A stretch of DNA of 20,325 nucleotides from a virus: positions 1-20,325 of the IMG/VR virus record IMGVR_UViG_3300003691_000070; one strand, written 5' to 3'. Position numbers and translations under genes: made by a program. Below, one piece after another: positions 161-15,073 of the stretch (position 1 is its first letter; each line of letters begins with the position of its first letter). Under the pieces are notes generated by a model, which was given only the letters and a program-made list of their open reading frames with translations, ran no database searches and was not told the DNA's origin.

Positions 161-697
161 TTATAGGTAAGATAAAATTAATAGGCGCTCGGTTTGTTTT
201 TCAGTAAAATTTTCCATTTTACAGTATTTTAAGAACAATGCCTTTCTTGGTTGTTTTACAAAACTTAAAGCCGTTTCATAATCATTAAAAGCAAATAAAT
301 CCTCTTTGACCAACAAACCTTCTTTTGTAACTGTGATGGATCGTGGAACAGGAAAAGGTATTTTTACAGAAGGTAAATCCGTTAAGTTCTGTAATTTATT
401 ATTCCACGGATTCCCATCAGAGTTAAATATTTTCTCATTGTATTCCCCATATTCAAGACACCAAACTATTGCGGGAACGGAATAAATATTATCGTCAAGC
501 CTGACTTTTAAGGTAGATTTTGGGGCTTTGTTAAAATACGTTAATCCCGCTATTTTTCCAGCTTGATTTTTATTAAATTTTTCCCAATTTTGAGTATTGA
601 TAAAATGTTTTGAGGGTCGATATGACCAAAGTAATTCGCCTTTTTCAGGATCATATTTAAAACATTGGGATAAAAAATTATAGGAAATTTCCTTCAT
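161..697 (-). CDS. HNH-endonuclease-like protein, probably catalytically dead
   Basis: This leftward gene of 178 residues uses the ATG at 697-695, with GAGG (703-706) 5 nt upstream. An in-frame ATG at 775 would add 26 residues but has no comparable SD. Residues 10-110 follow the phage HNH plan: YDPEKGELLW near the N-terminus, QAGKIAG, then YSVPAIVWCLEYGEY and GNPWNNKLQNL. Family members normally have HR before LxW and DHxxGN before the Asn-rich segment. Here these read PA and FNSDGN, so the catalytic and metal-binding histidines are missing while the Asn residues remain. The likely role is DNA binding without cutting, for example a regulator, or a decayed homing-type gene. It is the only gene on this strand. 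Confidence 0.6.
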   Translation of the reverse strand: MKEISYNFLSQCFKYDPEKGELLWSYRPSKHFINTQNWEKFNKNQAGKIAGLTYFNKAPKSTLKVRLDDNIYSVPAIVWCLEYGEYNEKIFNSDGNPWNNKLQNLTDLPSVKIPFPVPRSITVTKEGLLVKEDLFAFNDYETALSFVKQPRKALFLKYCKMENFTEKQTERLLILSYL

Positions 698-702
698 TCG
701 AA

Positions 703-755
703 CCTCGTTTCGTATTGCGTTACATGGGGAGTTGAACCAAGGCGGGGTAACGAGG
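703..755 (-). promoter_or_regulatory. possible SD-hiding hairpin in the leader of the HNH-like gene
   Basis: In the leftward transcript, CCTCGTT (complement of 749-755) can pair with AACGAGG (complement of 703-709), which contains the SD of the HNH-like gene. A competing pair, GTAACG at 747-752 with CGTTAC at 718-723, uses part of the same segment. The two pairings exclude each other, as in a simple on/off leader. Stems are only 6-7 bp with long loops, so this may be chance. Confidence 0.25.
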
Positions 756-790
756 CCCGCCGTTTCGGCTTGCATGGCCTAGGAACGGTG

Positions 791-1174: not shown

Positions 1175-1203
1175 AAGCGTGATGCTTACCCCGTCGTGAT
1201 GAC
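1175..1203 (+). promoter_or_regulatory. pair of GNRA-type mini-hairpins before the small terminase gene
   Basis: First hairpin: AAGC (1175-1178), loop GTGAT (1179-1183), GCTT (1184-1187). Second: GTC (1193-1195), loop GTGAT (1196-1200), GAC (1201-1203). The loops are identical and both are closed by C-G, while the outer stem bases differ but still pair. They belong to a family of seven in this window, the others being before the scaffold and the major capsid genes. They lie 23-51 nt before the chosen ATG of the small terminase gene. The role is unknown; binding by an RNA-binding protein is inferred. Confidence 0.6.
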
Positions 1204-1225
1204 ACAGAACCAAAAGCGAGTTTGT

Positions 1226-1861
1226 ATGGCTAAGCCTGATTACATTGATTTCTTTGCGGATAACCACAATGGTTTGAGTCCCAATGAAATTATTTTTTGT
1301 ACGGCTTACGCATCCAATGGACAGAACGCGACCAAAGCATATTTGAAAGCCTATCCCGAAGTAGAAGACCGTTTAAGTGCGGGAAAGATGGCTCATATTC
1401 TCTTGAAAAAATTGGAAGTCAAGAAATTAATTAATAACAAACTGAATGATCGTTTAGCTTGCGCTGATTTAGATATGGATTGGGTCCAAGCACGATTGAA
1501 GAATATTGCCAACGCAAACATCCAAGATCACGTTCACCCTGAGACTGGAAAAAATATTGCGATTAAAGATCTTCCCCGACACATTGCCGCAAATGTTAAG
1601 GAATTGGAAGTGTCCATTGTGGGCGATATGCGATTTGAAAAAACGAAATTACATTCTGCACAAAAAGCGTTAGACACTTTGGGGAACATGTTTAAGCCTG
1701 AAGTTCAACGTCATGAGATCACCGGGAAAGATGGAAAGCCTATTGGTATAGAGCATTCAGGGGGCGTGTTAGCTATCCCTGTTATGACCTGTGCTGAAAC
1801 GTGGGCCAAGGATGCCAAAGAGAGCCAAGAAGCCGTTCACAAAATCGCTAACGAAGAATAA
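1226..1861 (+). CDS. terS: terminase small subunit
   Basis: The predicted protein of 211 residues recognises phage DNA and hands it to the large terminase. Near the N-terminus LSPNEIIFCTAYASNGQNAT, then KAYLKAYPEV and a segment ending LEVKKLINNKL, have the helix-turn-helix pattern of the Terminase_2 family. Position just before the large subunit (6-nt gap) agrees. The frame can be opened from GTG 1196 or ATG 1199, but those lie inside the second mini-hairpin. ATG 1226, with AGCGAG about 5 nt upstream, gives the usual compact N-terminus (MAKPDYIDFF). The C-terminal part (GKDGKPIGIEHSGG onward) is presumably involved in contact with the large subunit or portal. Confidence 0.88.
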   Translation: MAKPDYIDFFADNHNGLSPNEIIFCTAYASNGQNATKAYLKAYPEVEDRLSAGKMAHILLKKLEVKKLINNKLNDRLACADLDMDWVQARLKNIANANIQDHVHPETGKNIAIKDLPRHIAANVKELEVSIVGDMRFEKTKLHSAQKALDTLGNMFKPEVQRHEITGKDGKPIGIEHSGGVLAIPVMTCAETWAKDAKESQEAVHKIANEE

Positions 1862-1867
1862 AACCAC

Positions 1868-3403
1868 ATGACAAACCTCGCGCCCTATTATAAAAAGATC
1901 GACGCGCACAGCCCAAGAATAACCATTGATACAACAAAACCCGCAGACTTAACACAGACCCGTGTTGTGTGGACTCCCCAAAAAGGTTCACAAACACTTG
2001 CTTTGTCCTGTCCTTTTTCGGAAATACTTTATGAAGGCGCACGTGGTCCAGGAAAGACCGATTGGATCTTAATGCGGTATGCTGCGCGTGTTGGTGTTGG
2101 TTTCGGTCCTTTTTGGGTGGGGATTATATTTCGTCGTGAGTATAAAGAACTTCAGGATATTATCCGTAAATCAAAACGATGGTTCCCACACATCTTTCCC
2201 GGTGCACGCTTTCTTCGTTCTGCTTCTGAATTAAAATGGGTATTCCCTGATGGGGAAGAACTTCTATTTCGTTTGATCAAAAATGAAGATGACTACTGGA
2301 GTTATCACGGTCACGAATATCCATTTATTGGTTGGGAAGAACTTTGTACATGGCCGGACTCTACTTGTTACGACGTAATGTTTTCCTGTAATCGTTCAAG
2401 CTATGTTCCTGAAGAAGGGGGAGACCAGTTACCGCTGGAGGTTATGTCCACGGCTAACCCTTATGGTGTTGGCCACAATTGGGTTAAAGCGCGATTCATT
2501 GACCAAGCATTACCCGGGGTGCCCTTTCTTTCAGAAGCTGGACGTGTAGCAGTTCATATCTTTGGTCATATCACTGAAAATAAGTTTTTGGATGAAGACT
2601 ATGTTGATACCATTCGCAATATCAAAGATCCAAACAAAAAGTTGGCTTGGTGGAATGGCTCTTGGGATATCACCGCAGGTGGAATGTTTGATGAGTTCTG
2701 GAGAACTGACATACACAAGGTTGACCTGTTCAAGATTCCTGGAACATGGAGGGTTTATAGATCCTTTGATTGGGGCTCCTCCAAGCCGTTTAGCGTTGGC
2801 TGGCACGCTATTTCCGATGGTAGTACGGTCGAAGCCTACGGAAAGACCTTTCGTACTGTACGGGGCGATATGTTCCGTATTAGCGAATGGTACGGATGTA
2901 CTGGAAAAGCTAATGAAGGGCTTAGAATGACCTCTAAGAACATAGCTATTGGAATCCTTGAACGTGAAGAGCTTTTAAAGACTCGCTTGAATGTGTTTGA
3001 AATTCTCCCCGGTCCTGCTGATTCATCCATCTACGATGAAAATGATGGGCCAAGCATTGGGACCAAGATGGAAGAGGAAGGTGTTTATTTTGAGAAAGCG
3101 AATAAACGTCCAGGATCAAGGAAAAATGGTTGGGAATTATTGCGTAACCTATTAGAAGCGGGTCTTCCTGTTCCAGCAAAAGATAATGACGGGGAACCCA
3201 TCGAAGGTGAATACCTACCACGGGAACACCCTTCATGTTATATTTTCAGCACTTGCACACACTTTTTTCGAACTATACCCACATTACCCCGTGACCCAAA
3301 AGACATGGATGATGTAAACACAGAAGCTGAAGATCACATTGCTGATGAATGGCGTTATATGGCGTTACATGAATTCGGAATGATCGCCCAAGAGGAATTC
3401 TAA
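1868..3403 (+). CDS. terL: terminase large subunit (packaging ATPase and nuclease)
   Basis: The protein of 511 residues is the motor that pumps DNA into the procapsid and cuts it. The ATPase half shows a Walker A motif GARGPGKT (57-64), a Walker B-like YPFIGWEEL (151-159) with the catalytic Glu pair, and the coupling motif STANP (194-198). The nuclease half has the RNase-H-type acidic residues in SFDWGSS (D301), GPADSSIYD (D385) and HIADEWRY (D493). Length is normal for the family. The SD upstream of ATG 1868 is weak, suggesting coupling to the small subunit gene. The stop overlaps the portal start by one base (TAATG at 3401-3405). No key residue is missing. Confidence 0.95.
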   Translation: MTNLAPYYKKIDAHSPRITIDTTKPADLTQTRVVWTPQKGSQTLALSCPFSEILYEGARGPGKTDWILMRYAARVGVGFGPFWVGIIFRREYKELQDIIRKSKRWFPHIFPGARFLRSASELKWVFPDGEELLFRLIKNEDDYWSYHGHEYPFIGWEELCTWPDSTCYDVMFSCNRSSYVPEEGGDQLPLEVMSTANPYGVGHNWVKARFIDQALPGVPFLSEAGRVAVHIFGHITENKFLDEDYVDTIRNIKDPNKKLAWWNGSWDITAGGMFDEFWRTDIHKVDLFKIPGTWRVYRSFDWGSSKPFSVGWHAISDGSTVEAYGKTFRTVRGDMFRISEWYGCTGKANEGLRMTSKNIAIGILEREELLKTRLNVFEILPGPADSSIYDENDGPSIGTKMEEEGVYFEKANKRPGSRKNGWELLRNLLEAGLPVPAKDNDGEPIEGEYLPREHPSCYIFSTCTHFFRTIPTLPRDPKDMDDVNTEAEDHIADEWRYMALHEFGMIAQEEF

Positions 3404-4824
3404 TGAGCGCTAGTAAGAACACAGTAGATTCAACATCCACAGCATATGACATTATGCTTCCTCGATTGAGATTAGGTGAAACATTGTTAGGGGGAACTCC
3501 TGCAATGAGAGATGCGGAAAAAACTTACTTACCTCAGTACGAAAGAGAAAGTGATGACAACTACAATAATCGTTTAGAAAAAGCCGTTCTGTTTAATGCC
3601 TACAAAAAGACATTGAACGGAACGGTTGGACGTGTGTTTTCAAAACCCGTTACCCTTAACGAAGGAGCCCCACCGCAGTTAGAAGAAATGACCACCGATA
3701 TCGACCGGCAAGGAAATGACCTAACAACTTGGGGCCGTAACTCGTTCAGGGATGGTGTTAGTAAAGGATTAACACATTGCTTAATCGACTTTCCAGAAAT
3801 CGACGCCGACAACGCAGAAGAAGAACTGGCACAGAAACCAGTCCCATACTTCAACATGATACCCCACGAAAACCTGATAGCAGCATACGCAACGGTAATC
3901 GACGGGAAGGAGGTGTTAACCCAAATTCGTATCAGAGAAGTTTCTGTTGTGGTTATTGGGTTTGAAGAGCAACAGATTGAACGTATACGTGTAATTACCC
4001 CTGGGGAGTTCGCTGTCTATGAAAAAACAGATGGTGATGATTGGGCTGTTGTGGAGCAAGGAACCTACGACCTAACCTTTATCCCCTTAGTAACGTTTTA
4101 CGCAGAACGTGACGACTTCATGTTGTCCACTCCACCATTGAGTGATTTGGGTTATCTAAACGTGGCTCATTGGCAATTCACATCTGATCTACAAAACACC
4201 TTAACCGTTGCAAGCTTTCCAATGTTAGCGGTTGCAGGTGCAGATAGTGATCAGAAAGGAAAGATTGTTGTTGGACCCAAGCAACTACTAAGCACTAAAA
4301 AAGAATCAGGGCGGTTCTACTTTGTAGAGCACACTGGCGCATCAATCGAAGCCAACCGGAATTACTTGCAGGATGTAGAAGGTCAAATGGCGTTGGAAGG
4401 TGTGAACCTTTTACGCCAACGACCGGGCACACAAACAGCAACACAACGAGCGATGGATGGTGCGGAAGAAACAAGTGATCTTAGAGAAATGGCCATACGC
4501 TTTGAGGACTTCCTTAACACCTGTTTTAATGTTGCCGCAGCATGGTTAGACCTAGAACAAGATTCAGCGGTTGTGAATGTTAACACTGATGGCCTTATCC
4601 TAGCGTCTAAAGATGCTGCTGAATTAGATCTTCTGTATAATATGTGTATTGCGGGAAAGCTTTCTTGGATGAGGTTCTTCACTGAATTGAAACGACGTGG
4701 TGTTCTTGCTGATGATGTTAATTTTGATGAGGAACGCGCATTGATTGCCGATCAGCCTCAAGACGACATGGGTATGTTTAACACACCTAGCACAACAGTA
4801 GACGATACGAATGACAGCGAATGA
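3403..4824 (+). CDS. portal protein, DUF4055 family
   Basis: The product of 473 residues forms the ring at one capsid vertex through which DNA enters and leaves and to which the tail attaches. The N-terminus has the DUF4055 portal signature: LGGTPAMRDAEKTYLPQYE, then YNNRLEKAVLFNAYKKTLNG and VGRVFSKPV. Further on, GTQTATQRAMDGAEETSDL fits the conserved helical region of this family. Placement between large terminase and the minor head protein is the standard order. Its ATG overlaps the terminase stop, and its own end overlaps the next gene by 14 nt, so translation is probably coupled. Confidence 0.92.
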   Translation: MSASKNTVDSTSTAYDIMLPRLRLGETLLGGTPAMRDAEKTYLPQYERESDDNYNNRLEKAVLFNAYKKTLNGTVGRVFSKPVTLNEGAPPQLEEMTTDIDRQGNDLTTWGRNSFRDGVSKGLTHCLIDFPEIDADNAEEELAQKPVPYFNMIPHENLIAAYATVIDGKEVLTQIRIREVSVVVIGFEEQQIERIRVITPGEFAVYEKTDGDDWAVVEQGTYDLTFIPLVTFYAERDDFMLSTPPLSDLGYLNVAHWQFTSDLQNTLTVASFPMLAVAGADSDQKGKIVVGPKQLLSTKKESGRFYFVEHTGASIEANRNYLQDVEGQMALEGVNLLRQRPGTQTATQRAMDGAEETSDLREMAIRFEDFLNTCFNVAAAWLDLEQDSAVVNVNTDGLILASKDAAELDLLYNMCIAGKLSWMRFFTELKRRGVLADDVNFDEERALIADQPQDDMGMFNTPSTTVDDTNDSE

Positions 4825-6010
4825 AGAATACTTTGACCGGTTGGTGTCTCACCAACTCGGTCTGGAAAGGTTAAAAACGGGTGTAGCCAATAACCTGTTA
4901 GAGCTTTTGGTTGCGAGTGAAACCGACTTGAAACAATTGATTGCGGGACGTATAGCATTGATTGATCAACGTGGGCCTACCTTTTCTGCTAATTCAACTC
5001 GAAGACTTAACGCTCTTCTAAAAGATATCGAGATCCTTAGAAGAAAAATCTACGGGGATCTAGAAACATCTTTAGACTTACAGCGTGTAGACTTCGGTGA
5101 ATATGAGGCAGAGTTTAATGCACGTATCATTGAAGATGTGGTACCTATCGAAGATTTCACGGTAACGCTACCAGGAAGAGACCAAATTGTTTCCGCTGCG
5201 CAAGCGAACCCAATTCGGGGACGGTTTTTAAATGAATGGTTCGACCAAGCAAGAACGAGTGAACTTGGTCGGCTGAATCAAATACTAAAAGTAGGCTTCT
5301 TCGAAGGTCGCACGAATGACCAAATTACCTCAGACATTTTTGGATCGGCGGACGTTCCGGGTGACATAAGAAAGTCACGTGCGAATGTTAAAACTATTGT
5401 TAGAACGTCCATGCAATCAATGGCACAAGGTGCACGTGATGAACTATTTAACGCAAACCAAGACCTTATTGGCGCGGTACGTTATACCTCTACGTTGGAT
5501 GGTCGTACAAGTGCCATCTGTAGAGCACGCGACGGAAGAGAGTTCCCCCTTGGGGAACCCAGACCAGAAATTCCGGCGCACCCTAATTGCAGGAGTACTT
5601 ATGTCCCTATTCTTGATGGCGTGGCCATTGTTGGTACTCGGCCTTTTGTACGAGATACCCGAGCACGCCAAACTAGGGAAATCAACTTTCGTGCAGACGC
5701 CCGCGCTCGTGCCGGTGACTCACGATGGAAACAACTGGATGAGAAACAAAGACGGGGCCTTATCCAAGGTGAAAGAGTGAGGTGGGCGGATTCTGCTATT
5801 GGCGCAACACCCGCAGAAACAACCTATTCACAATGGTTTAAGAAACAACCTACGAGCTTTCAACGACAAACACTAGGACCTACTAAGTTTGATCTGTATA
5901 ATCAAGGTGGCCTAGATCTTAACGCATTCGTTGATGAAACGAGCGGTAAGCCTTGGACACTAGCACAACTTCAAGCGAGAGAGGCGACAGCTTTCGCGAA
6001 GATAAGTTAA
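4811..6010 (+). CDS. minor head / head morphogenesis protein (Mu gpF-like)
   Basis: The protein of 399 residues carries the phage minor head domain: TLDGRTSAICRARDGREF (about 234-251) followed by IPAHPNCRSTY, the conserved pattern of SPP1 gp7 / Mu gpF proteins, thought to act at the portal during assembly or early DNA ejection. The first 150 residues are helical and poorly conserved. The C-terminal part (SQWFKKQPTSFQRQTLG, then GGLDLNAFVD) resembles the tail often found in this family. It overlaps the portal gene by 14 nt. A second open frame inside it (5379-5780) is a shadow. Confidence 0.9.
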   Translation: MTANEEYFDRLVSHQLGLERLKTGVANNLLELLVASETDLKQLIAGRIALIDQRGPTFSANSTRRLNALLKDIEILRRKIYGDLETSLDLQRVDFGEYEAEFNARIIEDVVPIEDFTVTLPGRDQIVSAAQANPIRGRFLNEWFDQARTSELGRLNQILKVGFFEGRTNDQITSDIFGSADVPGDIRKSRANVKTIVRTSMQSMAQGARDELFNANQDLIGAVRYTSTLDGRTSAICRARDGREFPLGEPRPEIPAHPNCRSTYVPILDGVAIVGTRPFVRDTRARQTREINFRADARARAGDSRWKQLDEKQRRGLIQGERVRWADSAIGATPAETTYSQWFKKQPTSFQRQTLGPTKFDLYNQGGLDLNAFVDETSGKPWTLAQLQAREATAFAKIS

Positions 6011-6030
6011 CTAAACAACCGGTGAATAGT

Positions 6031-6381
6031 ATGTTAGATAGAAAGGCGATAGAAGAGTCTTTAAAGGTTACGGAAACCCTTGACGGATTAGCTCTTGGGG
6101 GCAACAACCACAAACTAAGTCACCTACTTAGGTTACGGGAACATGTGGTAAGCCTTGTCACAGAAATGGATAAATACAATTCAGATCTTCAAGACCTCAT
6201 TGATGTTCAATGCAGTGAGGGTAACTGGAACTATAATGAATATATGAGAGGAATGGCTAATGGTCTCTTAGTGGCCCAAGCTGCACGAACGGAAAAGGTT
6301 ATTACGTTTTTAGAGGCACCTGAAACTTTCCTCTGTGATTTACCTAGCCAAACACCTAGACTTTTAGGTGATCCAGAATGA
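6031..6381 (+). CDS. conserved-looking phage protein of unknown function
   Basis: The gene encodes 116 residues from ATG 6031, with GGTGA (6021-6025) 5 nt upstream; a longer frame from 5953 would overlap the previous gene by 58 nt and is less likely. The middle is helical and charged. The segment YNEYMRGMANGLLVAQA followed by FLEAP resembles small phage proteins I have seen between head genes, but no function is known to me. It starts 20 nt after the minor head gene and overlaps the next gene by 4 nt (ATGA), so it belongs to the head operon. Confidence 0.75.
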   Translation: MLDRKAIEESLKVTETLDGLALGGNNHKLSHLLRLREHVVSLVTEMDKYNSDLQDLIDVQCSEGNWNYNEYMRGMANGLLVAQAARTEKVITFLEAPETFLCDLPSQTPRLLGDPE

Positions 6382-6761
6382 GCCAACATTTAATTGAAGT
6401 GCGCGTTGTTGCGGCAATGGACCCTAATTCTAGAATCCCCCGACCTATTTATAAATTCCTTGTGCGTATGCGTTCCAATATGCGTGACCCTGCCTTGTGG
6501 GCCAATGTTACTATTGATCCAACAAAGTGTGTTTCTTCTGGTGATGTGAAGAAAGCAATTGAATATGCGGGGGGTGCCGCCGCTGAAAGACTCTGTGATG
6601 AGTACGGTGACCACATAGACTGTGAACGTGCCGCCAGTACCGCCCTAAAGATTTTCGAACAATTAATGTTAGACATACATAACAAATCATTAACCATTAT
6701 TGATATAGCAAACATGGATCACATAAGTGGTCCCGGCTTGTTTCATCAAGAAGTAGTTTAA
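6378..6761 (+). CDS. unknown protein between head morphogenesis and scaffold genes
   Basis: The predicted protein of 127 residues starts at an ATGA overlap with the preceding gene. It has a short basic stretch near the N-terminus (FLVRMRSNMRD), a helical middle with Cys residues (ERLCDEYGDHIDCERAA) and no signal peptide or membrane segment. No family is recognised. Translational coupling with 6031-6381 suggests the two are made together. Its stop is followed after 4 nt by the first hairpin of the scaffold leader. Confidence 0.7.
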   Translation: MSQHLIEVRVVAAMDPNSRIPRPIYKFLVRMRSNMRDPALWANVTIDPTKCVSSGDVKKAIEYAGGAAAERLCDEYGDHIDCERAASTALKIFEQLMLDIHNKSLTIIDIANMDHISGPGLFHQEVV

Positions 6762-6765
6762 AACC

Positions 6766-6791
6766 GGCGTGATGCCACCAACGCGTGATGC
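6766..6791 (+). promoter_or_regulatory. pair of GNRA-type mini-hairpins before the scaffold gene
   Basis: Third family copy: GGC (6766-6768), loop GTGAT (6769-6773), GCC (6774-6776). Fourth copy: GC (6783-6784), GTGAT (6785-6789), GC (6790-6791), whose third pair is a C/A mismatch, so it is weaker. They fill most of the 45-nt gap between the previous stop (6761) and the scaffold start, ending just before the SD (GAGG, 6795-6798). This puts them where a bound protein would block ribosomes. Confidence 0.55.
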
Positions 6792-6806
6792 AAAGAGGAA
6801 ACACCA

Positions 6807-7571
6807 ATGTTCGAATTTAATGCTACAGTTTCAGATATAGAAATCGTTCCAGAAAATGCACGTTCACTTTATACGGCGAATGAAGAGGGAACGGGTTTCA
6901 ACCTGGACAAAGACCTAGCAGGTCGTTTAGATACGTCTAAACTAACAGGAGCCCTCGATAAAGAACGGGGCCTAAATCGCCAATCTGCAGCTATCCTGAA
7001 GTCTTGGAAAGGTCTGGGGTTTGAAACTCCTGAAGATGCTGAAACAGCAATTGAAGAAATGCGTAATGCACAAGCAGCCGGTGCTGACGGTAAATTGGAC
7101 TTTGACAAGTGGAAGCTTGATTCTGAAACCAAAATGAACAAGACGCTTGCTTTGAAAGATGAAGAAGTGGATGCGGCAAACGCAACGGTTCGAAATTATT
7201 TAGTTAACTCACAAGCCGCGAGTATCCTGGCGGATAAAGCCGCCGGTTTATCCGGTGCCGCTGCTTTGATCATGCCTCATGTTACCCGTGAAGTTGAAGC
7301 CATCAAAGGTGAAGATGGGACTTACGTTGTTCGTGTTAAAGATATGGAAACCCCTGGGCAGTATCGATCAAACGGCGAAGGTGGTTTTATGAACCTTCAA
7401 GAGCTACTTACCGAAATGAAATCACGTCCTGATATGGCGCGTGCATTTGATGCGGAACAAAAGCAAGGTACCGGAACCAAGACAAACCAAACCCGGACAC
7501 CTCTGAAAACAACCGGCGAGCGTTCCCCCAACCAAAAGATTACGGATGGACTAAACGCAAAAAGACGCTAG
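6807..7571 (+). CDS. capsid scaffolding protein
   Basis: The protein of 254 residues is rich in charged helix and has the build of an internal scaffold that guides capsid protein assembly and is then removed. LDKERGLNRQSAAILKSWKG (about 50-69), a Glu/Lys-rich helical centre, and a basic C-terminus ending NAKRR are typical of phage scaffolds, whose basic tail binds the capsid protein. It lies directly upstream of the major capsid gene. The SD GAGG is well placed. No protease gene is seen in the window, so removal may be by exit through pores or by a protease encoded elsewhere. Confidence 0.82.
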   Translation: MFEFNATVSDIEIVPENARSLYTANEEGTGFNLDKDLAGRLDTSKLTGALDKERGLNRQSAAILKSWKGLGFETPEDAETAIEEMRNAQAAGADGKLDFDKWKLDSETKMNKTLALKDEEVDAANATVRNYLVNSQAASILADKAAGLSGAAALIMPHVTREVEAIKGEDGTYVVRVKDMETPGQYRSNGEGGFMNLQELLTEMKSRPDMARAFDAEQKQGTGTKTNQTRTPLKTTGERSPNQKITDGLNAKRR

Positions 7572-7584
7572 AAAGCAAAAAGCT

Positions 7585-7639
7585 TGGAGCGCATTGTGTG
7601 GGGAGTCGCCACCCCAACCACCGGACACAATGCGCTCCA
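7585..7639 (+). repeat. 15-bp perfect inverted repeat in the capsid gene leader
   Basis: TGGAGCGCATTGTGT (7585-7599) is exactly complementary to ACACAATGCGCTCCA (7625-7639). The 25-nt loop can form a further GGGG/CCCC stem (7600-7603 with 7612-7615). No T-run follows (TCCCTTC), so it is not a standard intrinsic terminator. Possible roles are an RNase III processing site, an mRNA-stabilising structure at the 3' end of the scaffold message, or partial termination to tune scaffold against capsid protein. Confidence 0.85.
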
Positions 7640-7650
7640 TCCCTTCATAG

Positions 7651-7677
7651 TTGTTATAATTTGTAAAGTGCTATAAA
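7651..7677 (+). promoter_or_regulatory. candidate promoter for the major capsid gene
   Basis: TTGTTA (7651-7656) and TATAAA (7672-7677) are 15 nt apart, slightly short, and match the sigma-70 boxes at 4/6 and 5/6. A perfect TATAAT also occurs at 7655-7660, but its -35 region falls inside the 15-bp stem and is poor. A promoter here would boost the capsid gene, the most needed product, and give a leader holding three mini-hairpins. Confidence 0.35.
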
Positions 7678-7690
7678 ATAGAAACATATA

Positions 7691-7773
7691 GGCGTGAAGC
7701 CGCTCTATTTTCACCAAACTTTTCTAGGCGCGATGCCGAACAAGGTGATAGTAGCTAAAAAATGCGTGATGCA
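7691..7773 (+). promoter_or_regulatory. three GNRA-type mini-hairpins in the capsid gene leader
   Basis: Copy five: GGC (7691-7693), GTGAA (7694-7698), GCC (7699-7701). Copy six: GGC (7727-7729), GCGAT (7730-7734), GCC (7735-7737). Copy seven: TGC (7763-7765), GTGAT (7766-7770), GCA (7771-7773). The loops vary only at positions allowed by G-N-R-A-plus-one, and the stems keep pairing (GGC/GCC versus TGC/GCA). Spacing is 36 nt between each pair of starts (7691, 7727, 7763). The SD AAGGAG and ATG 7815 follow. Regular spacing supports a multi-site binding element. Confidence 0.6.
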
Positions 7774-7814: not shown

Positions 7815-8750
7815 ATGCCTTCAATTACTCTTCCCGAATCGGCAAAACTTGCACAAGACGATCTTGTAGCGGGAATTATCGAAAACATCATTACCGTTAA
7901 CCACATGTTTGAAATGCTTCCCTTTGATGGAATCGACGGTAACGCATTATCTTATAACCGAGAAAACGTTCTAGGTGACGTTCAACAGCTTGGTGTGGGC
8001 GGTGTGATTACGGCCAAAGCTCCTGCAACATTCACCAACGTTACAAGTTCACTGACCACAATCATCGGTGATGCAGAAGTTAACGGCCTAATCCAAGCCA
8101 CACGTTCAAGCGATGGCAACGACCAAACCGCCGTACAGATTGCATCAAAAGCCAAGTCAGCCGGTCGCGATTACCAAAACCAATTGATTAACGGAACGGG
8201 TGCATCTGATCAATTCAGTGGTCTATCTCTGTTAGTGGATGGTTCACAATCTATCGTCCAAGATACTGGCGGTAGTGTAACGAACGGGGGTGTTTTGTCG
8301 TTTGCCAAACTTGACGAACTGATTGACCTTGTAACCGACAAAGATGGTAACGTTGATTACATTGCCAAGAATGCGCGTACCATCCGTAGTTACTACGCTC
8401 TATTGCGTGGCCTTGGTGGTGCCTCAATCATGGACACGGTTGAACTACCTTCCGGTACGGTTATACCAGCCTATCGTGGTATTCCAATCTTGCGTAACGA
8501 TTACATTCCTGTGAACCAAACAACCGGTACGTTATCAGATGGTACCACCGTTTTCGCGGGTACGTTTGATGATGGTTCCCGTTCTTCTGGTATTGCCGGT
8601 TTAACCGCGACAAATGCATCAGGTATTTCTGTAGTCGATGTAGGTGAATCAGAAACACGTGATGAAAGTATCACACGTGTGAAGTGGTATTGTGGTCTTG
8701 CTTTGTTCAGTCTGAAAGGATTGGCAGCATTGACAGGTGTAGCCAACTAA
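7815..8750 (+). CDS. major capsid protein (HK97 fold expected)
   Basis: The protein of 311 residues would form the shell. Position after the scaffold, its own leader, a strong SD (AAGGAG) and a strong terminator directly after it all fit the major capsid gene. The sequence is typical of phage capsid proteins without a cleaved N-terminal domain: an N-arm (PSITLPESAKLAQDDLVAGI), a long-helix segment (FAKLDELIDLVTDKDG), and a P-loop-like strand region (SGTVIPAYRGIPILRNDYIP) ending with a hydrophobic A-domain-like segment (CGLALFSLKGLAALTGV). Arg is written mainly with CGT, consistent with high expression. Confidence 0.88.
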   Translation: MPSITLPESAKLAQDDLVAGIIENIITVNHMFEMLPFDGIDGNALSYNRENVLGDVQQLGVGGVITAKAPATFTNVTSSLTTIIGDAEVNGLIQATRSSDGNDQTAVQIASKAKSAGRDYQNQLINGTGASDQFSGLSLLVDGSQSIVQDTGGSVTNGGVLSFAKLDELIDLVTDKDGNVDYIAKNARTIRSYYALLRGLGGASIMDTVELPSGTVIPAYRGIPILRNDYIPVNQTTGTLSDGTTVFAGTFDDGSRSSGIAGLTATNASGISVVDVGESETRDESITRVKWYCGLALFSLKGLAALTGVAN

Positions 8751-8765
8751 AAATTGGTGCATAAT

Positions 8766-8802
8766 AAAAGGGGCTACGTGGAAACATGCAGCCCTTTTTT
8801 TT
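8766..8802 (+). terminator. strong intrinsic terminator after the major capsid gene
   Basis: AAAAGGGGCT (8766-8775) pairs with AGCCC and the following T-run (8790-8802), with one G-T pair. The loop is itself a stem, CGTG/CATG around a GAAA tetraloop (8777-8788), so the hairpin is long and stable. Eight T follow at 8795-8802. It would end or strongly cut transcription after the capsid gene and so raise capsid levels relative to downstream genes. Confidence 0.88.
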
Positions 8803-10733: not shown

Positions 10734-11043
10734 ATCTAAACGAGGAAGGAACATTAACACCTACACCGCTGTTAATGCACCACCACCCCTTCAACTGAAT
10801 ACAACGACCTACACCACACTAGGAGTGGATAACCCTAGAAGGCTCGGTTATAAAATAACTAATGATTCCGCCCATGATATCCTTGTTAAAGAACAAGCGT
10901 TTGATGATCCTGATTCAGCAGACAGAGGGTTCAAGGTTTTCAAGCGATCAGTGTATGAATCAAAACCGGATAATATAGCCATTGGCCCTATTAGTGCTAA
11001 AGCTGTCAGTGGATCACCCTCCGTAATGTTTGTGGAGGAGTAA
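10726..11043 (+). CDS. small putative virion protein
   Basis: The product of 105 residues uses ATG 10726, with a strong SD (GGAGG, 10712-10716) 9 nt upstream inside the previous gene; the frame is open back to 10663 but without an SD. A basic start (MSESKRGRNINTY) is followed by a beta-rich body (NPRRLGYKITNDSAHDILVK). No family is recognised. The 8-nt overlap with the upstream gene and 2-nt gap to the next imply coupled translation of a decoration-type cassette. Confidence 0.68.
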   Translation: MSESKRGRNINTYTAVNAPPPLQLNTTTYTTLGVDNPRRLGYKITNDSAHDILVKEQAFDDPDSADRGFKVFKRSVYESKPDNIAIGPISAKAVSGSPSVMFVEE

Positions 11044-13834: not shown

Positions 13835-15073
13835 ATGGATGAGGTTGCCGGACGTATAGGTGCCTATCGATTAGGCCAATTTAGGATAGGTTGGCCCGGT
13901 ACCAGTGAGGTTACCGGGTTAGTTCTTGCGGGTACCACTGCGGGTACATCAACTGCGGTTGGTGATCTTTCCATAGTAAGCTCCTTTTCATTAGGGGGAA
14001 CCCTTGCGGGCACATCAACTGCGGTTGGTGATCTTAATATAATAGGTGCTTTCGAACTTTCTGGTGCTTCCCCTGGTACGTCGACAGCCGTAGCTAGTGT
14101 GAGTATTAGTAAAGATTTAACCGGTCTTTCTGCGGGCACATCAACTGCGGTTGGTGATCTCGGTATTTTTAAAGCGTTGGTTGGTAGTGCTGCGGGCCTT
14201 TCCACCTTAACAGGGGAATTGTTATTATCAGGTGCCTTCTCTTTGTCGGCAACCGTTGGGGGTTCTTCAACAGCAACCGCTGATGTGACAATAACGAAAG
14301 ATTTACTAGGTAATGCTGCGGGATCTTCAACAGCAATGGGGGATCTTTCACTATCAGGCGCTCTTTCTTTAGCAGGAGCAGCCATTGGTTCTTCAACAGC
14401 AACCGCTGATGTTGAGATCAGTAAAGACGTACAAGGAATAGCCCTTGGGTCTTCAACAGCAACCGCTGATGTAACCATTGAAAAAGACTTACTAGGTAAT
14501 GCGGCGGGGTCTTCAACAGCAACCGCTGATGTAACCATTGAAAAAGACTTAGCGGGAACAGCCCTTGGGTCTTCAACAGCAACTGGTGATATATCGTTAG
14601 AGGGTGTTTTTTCATTACGTGGAGTACTTGCGGGAAGTTCAACAGCAACCGCCACAGCAACACTTGATGGGCCCTTAAATGGAGCATCACCGGGAACGTC
14701 GACAGCAACCGCTGACTTAAATCTAACAGGGGCATTTTCATTAGCAGGTGCAACTGCGGGATCTTCTACAGCGTCAGGTTCTGTTGATATTTCTAAGCCC
14801 TTAGCGGGAACGGCTGTTGGTGATGCGGTTATTGCTGGAAGTATTTCAGTAACCAAAAATATGGAGGGCTCCGCGACCGGTTCTTCAACATCAGCGGGAA
14901 ACATAGGGTTCAACTATAGCCTTATCGGTCAAGCTAGTGGAAGTTCAACATTAACAGGGGTACTTACTTCACCAACCTCTATTTTGTTGGGTGCACAAAA
15001 CCTGACTATACAAACCGCAAGAGATGACTACACGGTTCTAAAAGGTAGCAATAACGCCTTCACAATCCTGTAA
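13835..15073 (+). CDS. repeat-rich fibre-like protein
   Basis: The protein of 412 residues begins with a short unique head (RIGAYRLGQFRIGW) and then carries about 17 consecutive repeats of 20 or 22 residues (about 28-376), each containing G-S/T-S-T-A. The 20-residue type reads like IEKDLLGNAAGSSTATADV; the 22-residue type has GAFSLAGA before GSSTAT. A 35-residue end (ILLGAQNLTIQTARDDYT) follows. Such repeats suit a beta-solenoid or trimeric fibre shaft built from Ser, Thr, Gly and Ala. The start directly follows the previous stop (TAAATG). Repeat number is likely to vary between relatives. Confidence 0.75.
   Translation: MDEVAGRIGAYRLGQFRIGWPGTSEVTGLVLAGTTAGTSTAVGDLSIVSSFSLGGTLAGTSTAVGDLNIIGAFELSGASPGTSTAVASVSISKDLTGLSAGTSTAVGDLGIFKALVGSAAGLSTLTGELLLSGAFSLSATVGGSSTATADVTITKDLLGNAAGSSTAMGDLSLSGALSLAGAAIGSSTATADVEISKDVQGIALGSSTATADVTIEKDLLGNAAGSSTATADVTIEKDLAGTALGSSTATGDISLEGVFSLRGVLAGSSTATATATLDGPLNGASPGTSTATADLNLTGAFSLAGATAGSSTASGSVDISKPLAGTAVGDAVIAGSISVTKNMEGSATGSSTSAGNIGFNYSLIGQASGSSTLTGVLTSPTSILLGAQNLTIQTARDDYTVLKGSNNAFTIL
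14447..14551 (+). repeat. recently duplicated 60-bp unit in the fibre gene
   Basis: Bases 14447-14491 and 14507-14551 are identical over 45 nt at a 60-nt period, and weaker copies of the same unit occur at 14387 and 14267 onward. Coding repeats usually drift at third positions, so identity here points to recent duplication or gene conversion between units. Confidence 0.85.

Follow-up and report, generated by a model that had tools for sequence, protein, structure and literature searches.

Short hairpins preceding the small terminase, scaffold and major capsid genes of a virus record are, as judged from the sequences, a lineage-specific RNA element in the leaders of head-gene mRNAs, and they often stand in tandem. 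Seven of them had been described in a first-pass annotation of this DNA; that observation is real, and it was understated. The same hairpins were found in about 80 metagenomic relatives and in the phages YuA, LKO4, PaMx11, FP1, Sonora, PaMx28 and DoCa6. The reading preferred here, with a probability of about 45%, is an RNA operator that would be read by a putative RNA-binding factor and would act on translation.

Hairpins of the analysed window

The window, i.e. the whole stretch of DNA that was analysed, is a virus record of 20,325 bases. Besides terS (small terminase subunit) and terL it carries genes for the portal, head morphogenesis, the scaffold, the major capsid protein and the tail. 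In its capsid protein it shares about 73% identity with the Pseudomonas phages PaMx11, Ab18 and Lucjan, and about 70% with YuA, Bordetella phage FP1 and Stenotrophomonas phage Sonora; its capsid relatives belong for the most part to the Mesyanzhinovviridae. All seven stem-loop sequences were present where they had been described (Table 1). Six of them are hairpins with three or four Watson-Crick pairs, and the remaining one, the second copy of the scaffold leader, has two pairs only. The 9-mer GCGTGATGC, reported to occur four times on one strand, was counted four times on the plus strand and not at all on the minus strand, with a mean of 0.14 and a maximum of 1 in dinucleotide shuffles. The description of all copies as intergenic perhaps does not hold strictly for the second terS hairpin, which overlaps start candidates of that gene.

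A strict window hairpin was defined by the loop G[TC]GA[TA], C-G closure and at least three Watson-Crick pairs. Six such hairpins were found on the plus strand of the 20.3 kb and none on the minus strand, and all six lie within 493 nt of leader sequence, for which a first-order Markov null gave an average of 0.009 and never more than 2 in 1000. A chance origin was ruled out by the shuffles, by this null and, as described below, by the strand bias in relatives and the covariation of the stems. The hairpins were also rejected as intrinsic terminators, since none of the seven was terminator-like in a pattern scan and no T run follows any of them. When folded alone, the two-pair scaffold copy had an energy of 0.0 kcal/mol and the other six were weak (−0.4 to −3.3 kcal/mol); in the minimum-energy fold of the scaffold leader the two hairpin copies paired with each other.

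Table 1. Positions of the hairpins and associated features in the 20,325-base window.
Feature	Position	Strand	Details
terS-leader hairpin 1	1175..1187	+	AAGC-GTGAT-GCTT, 4 bp; covariance-model match, 15.4 bits
terS-leader hairpin 2	1193..1203	+	GTC-GTGAT-GAC, 3 bp; overlaps in-frame start candidates GTG1196/ATG1199
Terminase small subunit gene	1226..1861	+	phrog_51, 1.7e-16; Pfam Terminase_2, 6e-17; alternative start at 1196 or 1199 possible
Scaffold-leader hairpin 1	6766..6776	+	GGC-GTGAT-GCC, 3 bp; covariance-model match
Scaffold-leader hairpin 2	6783..6791	+	GC-GTGAT-GC, 2 bp only; loop end 17 nt upstream of ATG 6807
Head scaffolding protein gene	6807..7571	+	phrog_206, 6.8e-27
Candidate sigma70-like promoter	7651..7679	+	TTGTTA-N17-TAAAAT; upstream of capsid leader; weak, promoter count of the region not above shuffles
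Capsid-leader hairpin 1	7691..7701	+	GGC-GTGAA-GCC, 3 bp
Capsid-leader hairpin 2	7727..7737	+	GGC-GCGAT-GCC, 3 bp; covariance-model match, 16.8 bits
Capsid-leader hairpin 3	7763..7773	+	TGC-GTGAT-GCA, 3 bp; covariance-model match; loop end 44 nt upstream of ATG 7815
Major capsid protein gene	7815..8750	+	phrog_212, 6.6e-71

Several other features of the window were recorded. The gap between scaffold and capsid genes contains a perfect 15-nt inverted repeat (TGGAGCGCATTGTGT / ACACAATGCGCTCCA, 25 nt spacer, 7585-7639), which matches the terminator of relatives in its site, yet has no T run after it. Directly after the capsid gene (8771-8802), an imperfect GGGC...GCCC stem-loop with eight T behind it is terminator-like by eye and was not reported by the pattern scan. 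Upstream of terS, the non-coding region at 840-990 holds an alternating GT/CA-rich stretch and tandem repeats of GGCGGTATT, and an HNH endonuclease gene (161-775, minus strand), a possible homing insertion, lies on the opposite strand between a gene for an acidic-tailed protein and terS. A 412-aa protein encoded at 13835-15073 has repeated AGTSTAVGDL / GSSTATADV-like units, and a 349-aa antisense frame is open there.

The hairpin family in related phages

For the analysis of relatives, eighty loci were retrieved by capsid protein. In an unbiased scan of 975 kb for every pentaloop with at least four Watson-Crick pairs, GTGAT ranked first (38) and GCGAT second (30) on the coding strand, compared with 4 and 3 on the opposite strand; the dominance of GTGAT noted in the window is local to it. 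A leader set was assembled from 103 leaders, each covering the 130 nt before a scaffold or capsid start, and GYGAT was taken regardless of pairing. Among the 105 plus-strand copies, 86% had at least two pairs and 65% at least three, versus 5.6% and 1.8% in coding sequence, and none of the 16 minus-strand copies in these leaders reached three pairs. One or more strict copies were present in 42 of 64 leaders of the major capsid protein (MCP) gene (minus strand, 1/64); for scaffold leaders the figure was 27 of 37, with none on the minus strand, and for coding control windows 9 of 483. In the relatives, copies stand upstream of the same genes as had been noted in the window, namely scaffold and major capsid and, in a part of the phages, the small terminase as well. 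Loop and stem pairing were conserved on one strand and before these genes instead of being scattered at random over both strands.

Covariation was computed for 76 non-redundant copies that had been selected by loop only. All five counted pairs showed changes on both sides, and the covariation score of 0.650 was reached in none of 500 shuffles (0.201 ± 0.025) and fell to at most 0.184 when the partners were slid. The outer stem pairs thus change together, as had been read from the seven copies alone, and the copies form one family of RNA-strand hairpins. The second stem pair is G-C in the majority (57/76). Constant closure by C-G, a property of the window copies, did not extend to the relatives, in which G-C, C-G and A-T are about equally frequent. 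A covariance model of a single hairpin comprises 19 positions and is too short to find copies unaided; its best match in the window was a minus-strand chance match (11006-11024), and the leader sites of the named phages scored E-values of only 0.4-4. Because of these poor E-values the case rests on position and covariation.

The constancy of G1, G3 and A4 of the loop is imposed by how the copies were picked; independently of this, the near-variant loops GYAAT, GYCAT, AYGAT and GYGCT were not enriched in the 103 leaders, so that changing G1, G3 or A4 abolished the pairing signal. At position 5, leader copies with at least three pairs had 68 T, 19 C, 9 A and 5 G. GTGAC is a frequent variant in the leaders, and some few relatives have GAGAT or GAGAG loops in place of GYGAY. 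Since position 5 is usually able to pair with G1, the loop can be read in two ways, as a GNRA-like pentaloop or as a YGA triloop with G-U or G-C as its closing pair; the earlier term 'GNRA plus one' is one of these readings. The first hairpin of capsid leaders often sits atop a lower stem across a symmetric purine-rich internal loop of 2-4 nt (GAA/AGA, AA/AA; MCP leaders L005, L007, L014, L019, L026, L029, L054, L070 and L072), in some of these cases with GAGAG or GAGAT as the loop; this internal loop is perhaps a second recognition element.

In six named phages whose genomes were complete or nearly so, clusters were confined to head-gene leaders, and isolated copies elsewhere were about as frequent as the minus-strand background. 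Hairpins were absent from the leaders of Acinetobacter phage MD-2021a, Brevundimonas phage Poludnitsa, Xanthomonas phage Xp15 and Pseudomonas phage hairong, no strict GYGAN copy was found in the scaffold or MCP leader of four loci of the lineage (L001, L002, L012, L062), and the hairpin was not enriched in 72 loci with distant terminases and other capsids. The element thus tracks the capsid/scaffold lineage, though not all of its members.

Proposed function and alternative explanations

An element at the RNA level is indicated by the covariation, the constant loop, the single orientation and the position within leaders. The hairpins, usually two and sometimes one or three per leader, stand at a conserved distance from the start codon. 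From the loop end of the last hairpin to the AUG, 14-27 nt were measured in 26 of 33 scaffold leaders (mode 18 nt) and 44-56 nt in 29 of 44 MCP leaders (about 48 nt), and the window matches both spacings, in the scaffold leader by its two-pair copy (Table 1). In YuA, LKO4, PSA20, FP1 and Sonora the annotated terS ATG lies inside a GYGAT copy; three of these five phages are close relatives, so that the overlaps amount to about three independent cases, and ATG1199 of the window is possibly a fourth. A copy at terS is not found in all phages, PaMx11 being without one. For Xanthomonas phage DoCa6 (L091:5756-5888), the annotated scaffold start at 5756 lies upstream of the hairpin pair, and translation probably begins instead at the ATG that follows AGAAGGAG near 5888.

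Phage RNA operators that act on translation have their hairpin at a set position with respect to the start codon, and such a position was found here in the spacing and in the terS overlap. The distance of the hairpins to promoter-like sites is variable, and translation is preferred as the output because the conserved distance is that to the start codon and not to the promoter. From covarying structure, strand, genes, spacing and lineage, all of which were computed, we infer action of the RNA in the transcript, binding of a protein and an output in translation. The hairpins would act in cis within the 5′ leaders of the late mRNAs of head genes (small terminase, scaffold and major capsid), each consisting of a short stem of free sequence and the loop 5′-G-Y-G-A-Y-3′. 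A single RNA-binding factor, encoded by phage or host, would recognise loop and stem shape and by its binding tune how often ribosomes start on the head genes. The strength of this effect would differ per gene through the fixed, gene-specific distance of the last hairpin to the start codon, so that it would cover the AUG of terS, abut the ribosome-binding site of scaffold and lie about 45 nt upstream of the capsid start. Against such an operator stand the position of the last capsid hairpin outside the usual ribosome footprint, for which a simple steric block would be insufficient, the weakness of the window hairpins alone together with the other fold that the scaffold pair may adopt, and the lack of a strict copy in about one third of the MCP leaders. 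Moreover, the fixed spacing might stem from common descent of the leaders.

Protein binding, which the first-pass annotation had suggested, is plausible from the fixed G1, G3 and A4 next to variable stems. It speaks against a translation operator that the non-structural proteins common to six motif-bearing phages included no candidate for the binding factor; the genes in common encode a helicase, a thymidylate synthase, a dCMP deaminase, a nuclease-like protein, a primase and a membrane protein. No N-type arginine-rich antiterminator was recognised by sequence among these shared proteins, although short basic proteins diverge fast. The head-morphogenesis protein tracks the motif in the named phages and was rejected as binder, as two relatives (L064, L065) have hairpins but no detectable homologue; the terminase small subunit was rejected because those of the window (phrog_51) and of YuA (phrog_4044) belong to different families. 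The hairpins may be read by a factor of the host or by RNA polymerase itself.

In antitermination, promoter-proximal hairpins would, once transcribed, recruit a factor or contact RNA polymerase directly, like HK022 put, so that terminators after scaffold and capsid are passed towards the tail genes. The tandem hairpins resemble put, a phage factor is not required, consistent with the missing shared candidate, and the records of YuA, PaMx11, Sonora and LKO4 place terminators behind scaffold and/or capsid. Promoters are annotated directly before the hairpins in LKO4; where the window has its candidate capsid-leader promoter, LKO4 has an annotated one and YuA a readable one. Both phages have sigma70-like promoters before terS (TTGGCT-N17-TATACT) and before scaffold (TTGACC-N17-TACAAT), and the first scaffold hairpin of YuA begins 7 nt past the −10 box of the latter. 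The YuA record labels the scaffold-leader fragment as a −24/−12 promoter of high activity. Across all leaders, however, promoter enrichment upstream of hairpins was slight (7.3 versus 6.5-6.7 in shuffles), window promoters did not exceed the shuffle expectation, and no boxA was found in the window leaders. MCP genes less than 90 nt from scaffold had hairpins in 1 of 11 cases compared with 34 of 50 for longer gaps, which favours antitermination; yet short gaps simply leave little room, two of them (L004, L063) were mis-called by ORF calling and do carry hairpins, and some short-gap phages (L028, L034, L039) have hairpins before scaffold instead. With the conserved distance being that to the start codon, antitermination is considered unlikely.

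Protection or processing of mRNA, i.e. 5′-proximal hairpins that block 5′-end-dependent decay of late mRNAs or mark endonuclease cleavage sites, would suit genes that are highly expressed and the scaffold leaders of YuA and FP1, in which the first hairpin is close to where the transcript is predicted to begin. A need for stability would not by itself account for the fixed GYGAY, though, as other stable loops are unenriched, and many of the hairpins are thermodynamically weak, so that this role is likewise rather improbable.

Two further explanations are very improbable. Sites at the DNA level, either palindromic operators bound by a transcription factor or hairpins in single-stranded DNA like those of the N4 virion RNA polymerase, would agree with near-palindromic copies near promoters; but stems and closing pairs vary while pairing is kept, which makes a base-reading protein on double-stranded DNA unlikely and ruled out a double-stranded operator, the orientation always follows the genes, and no annotated YuA protein comes close in size to the N4 virion polymerase. 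Pairing of GUGAU with AUCAC at the 16S rRNA 3′ end, as an extended Shine-Dalgarno or standby site, draws on GGUGAUCC, which is part of a perfect complement of the 16S tail; GCGAT mismatches the tail yet almost reaches the frequency of GTGAT and is paired equally often, and the stems would need opening.

On a bolder reading, only slightly less probable than the preferred one, an undescribed RNA-operator family would join the head genes of the lineage into a post-transcriptional regulon, in which one loop-reading factor would set the ratio of terminase, scaffold and capsid via gene-specific hairpin distances; the factor is possibly of host origin, because the phages have no apparent candidate in common. 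For a capsid to assemble, scaffold, capsid and packaging proteins must be made in fixed ratios, and how phages with double-stranded DNA set them is poorly known. The covarying motif, which stands in the leaders of just these genes and occurs in cultured phages (YuA, LKO4, PaMx11, FP1, Sonora), offers a direct handle, as the loop can be mutated and the binder retrieved, and related phages without hairpins are natural comparisons. The hairpin could also serve for tagging RNA or as a part for control.

Comparison with known systems

In line with the first-pass annotation, no phage system with this motif and placement was found in the literature searched; an earlier mention in papers on YuA transcription is possible. 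Covariance models of Rfam release 15 gave no gathering-level match in the window, and in YuA (33.3-39.6 kb) no more than two matches, both at the level of chance. CsrA/RsmA sites, which need GGA in the hairpin loop, were rejected for the GYGAY loop.

The analogy with boxB of lambdoid nut sites, drawn when the hairpins were first noticed, was not supported. Both are short phage RNA hairpins with a GNR-type pentaloop, repeated in leaders and with a plausible loop-reading binder. The GNRNA loop of boxB requires A at position 5, which is mostly U or C here, and no boxA (CGCTCTTA-like) was found beside any window hairpin; boxB identity thus failed on both tested features. In addition, the hairpins described here are usually tandem, free in stem sequence and tied to head-gene start codons.

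The put RNA of HK022, as generally known, has a pair of adjoining stem-loops shortly after the start of a phage transcript, with terminators downstream. A similar layout may hold here, as tandem stem-loops were found in many leaders, with transcript starts that are predicted only; unlike put, the stems are very short, the loop is constant (GYGAY), three separate leaders per phage are concerned and the spacing is fixed to the start codon. The coat-protein operators of the RNA phages MS2 and PP7, also from general knowledge, are similar in the hairpin at the start site and in the recognition of loop and stem shape that is proposed here, and differ from the present element in loop, in the tandem arrangement and in the three genes of a phage with double-stranded DNA.

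Among described one-strand repeats at phage gene starts, the nearest are the Start Associated Sequences (SAS) of cluster K mycobacteriophages, which are short, lie few bases from many start codons and have a suspected role in translation initiation (PMC3203893). SAS are a fixed 13-mer with a Shine-Dalgarno core before non-structural genes only, and for the ESAS repeats support by base pairing is, according to the authors, lacking (PMC3203893). The hairpins share with SAS the one-strand short repeats at phage gene starts; in contrast to SAS, their stems covary strongly and the genes that they precede are structural.
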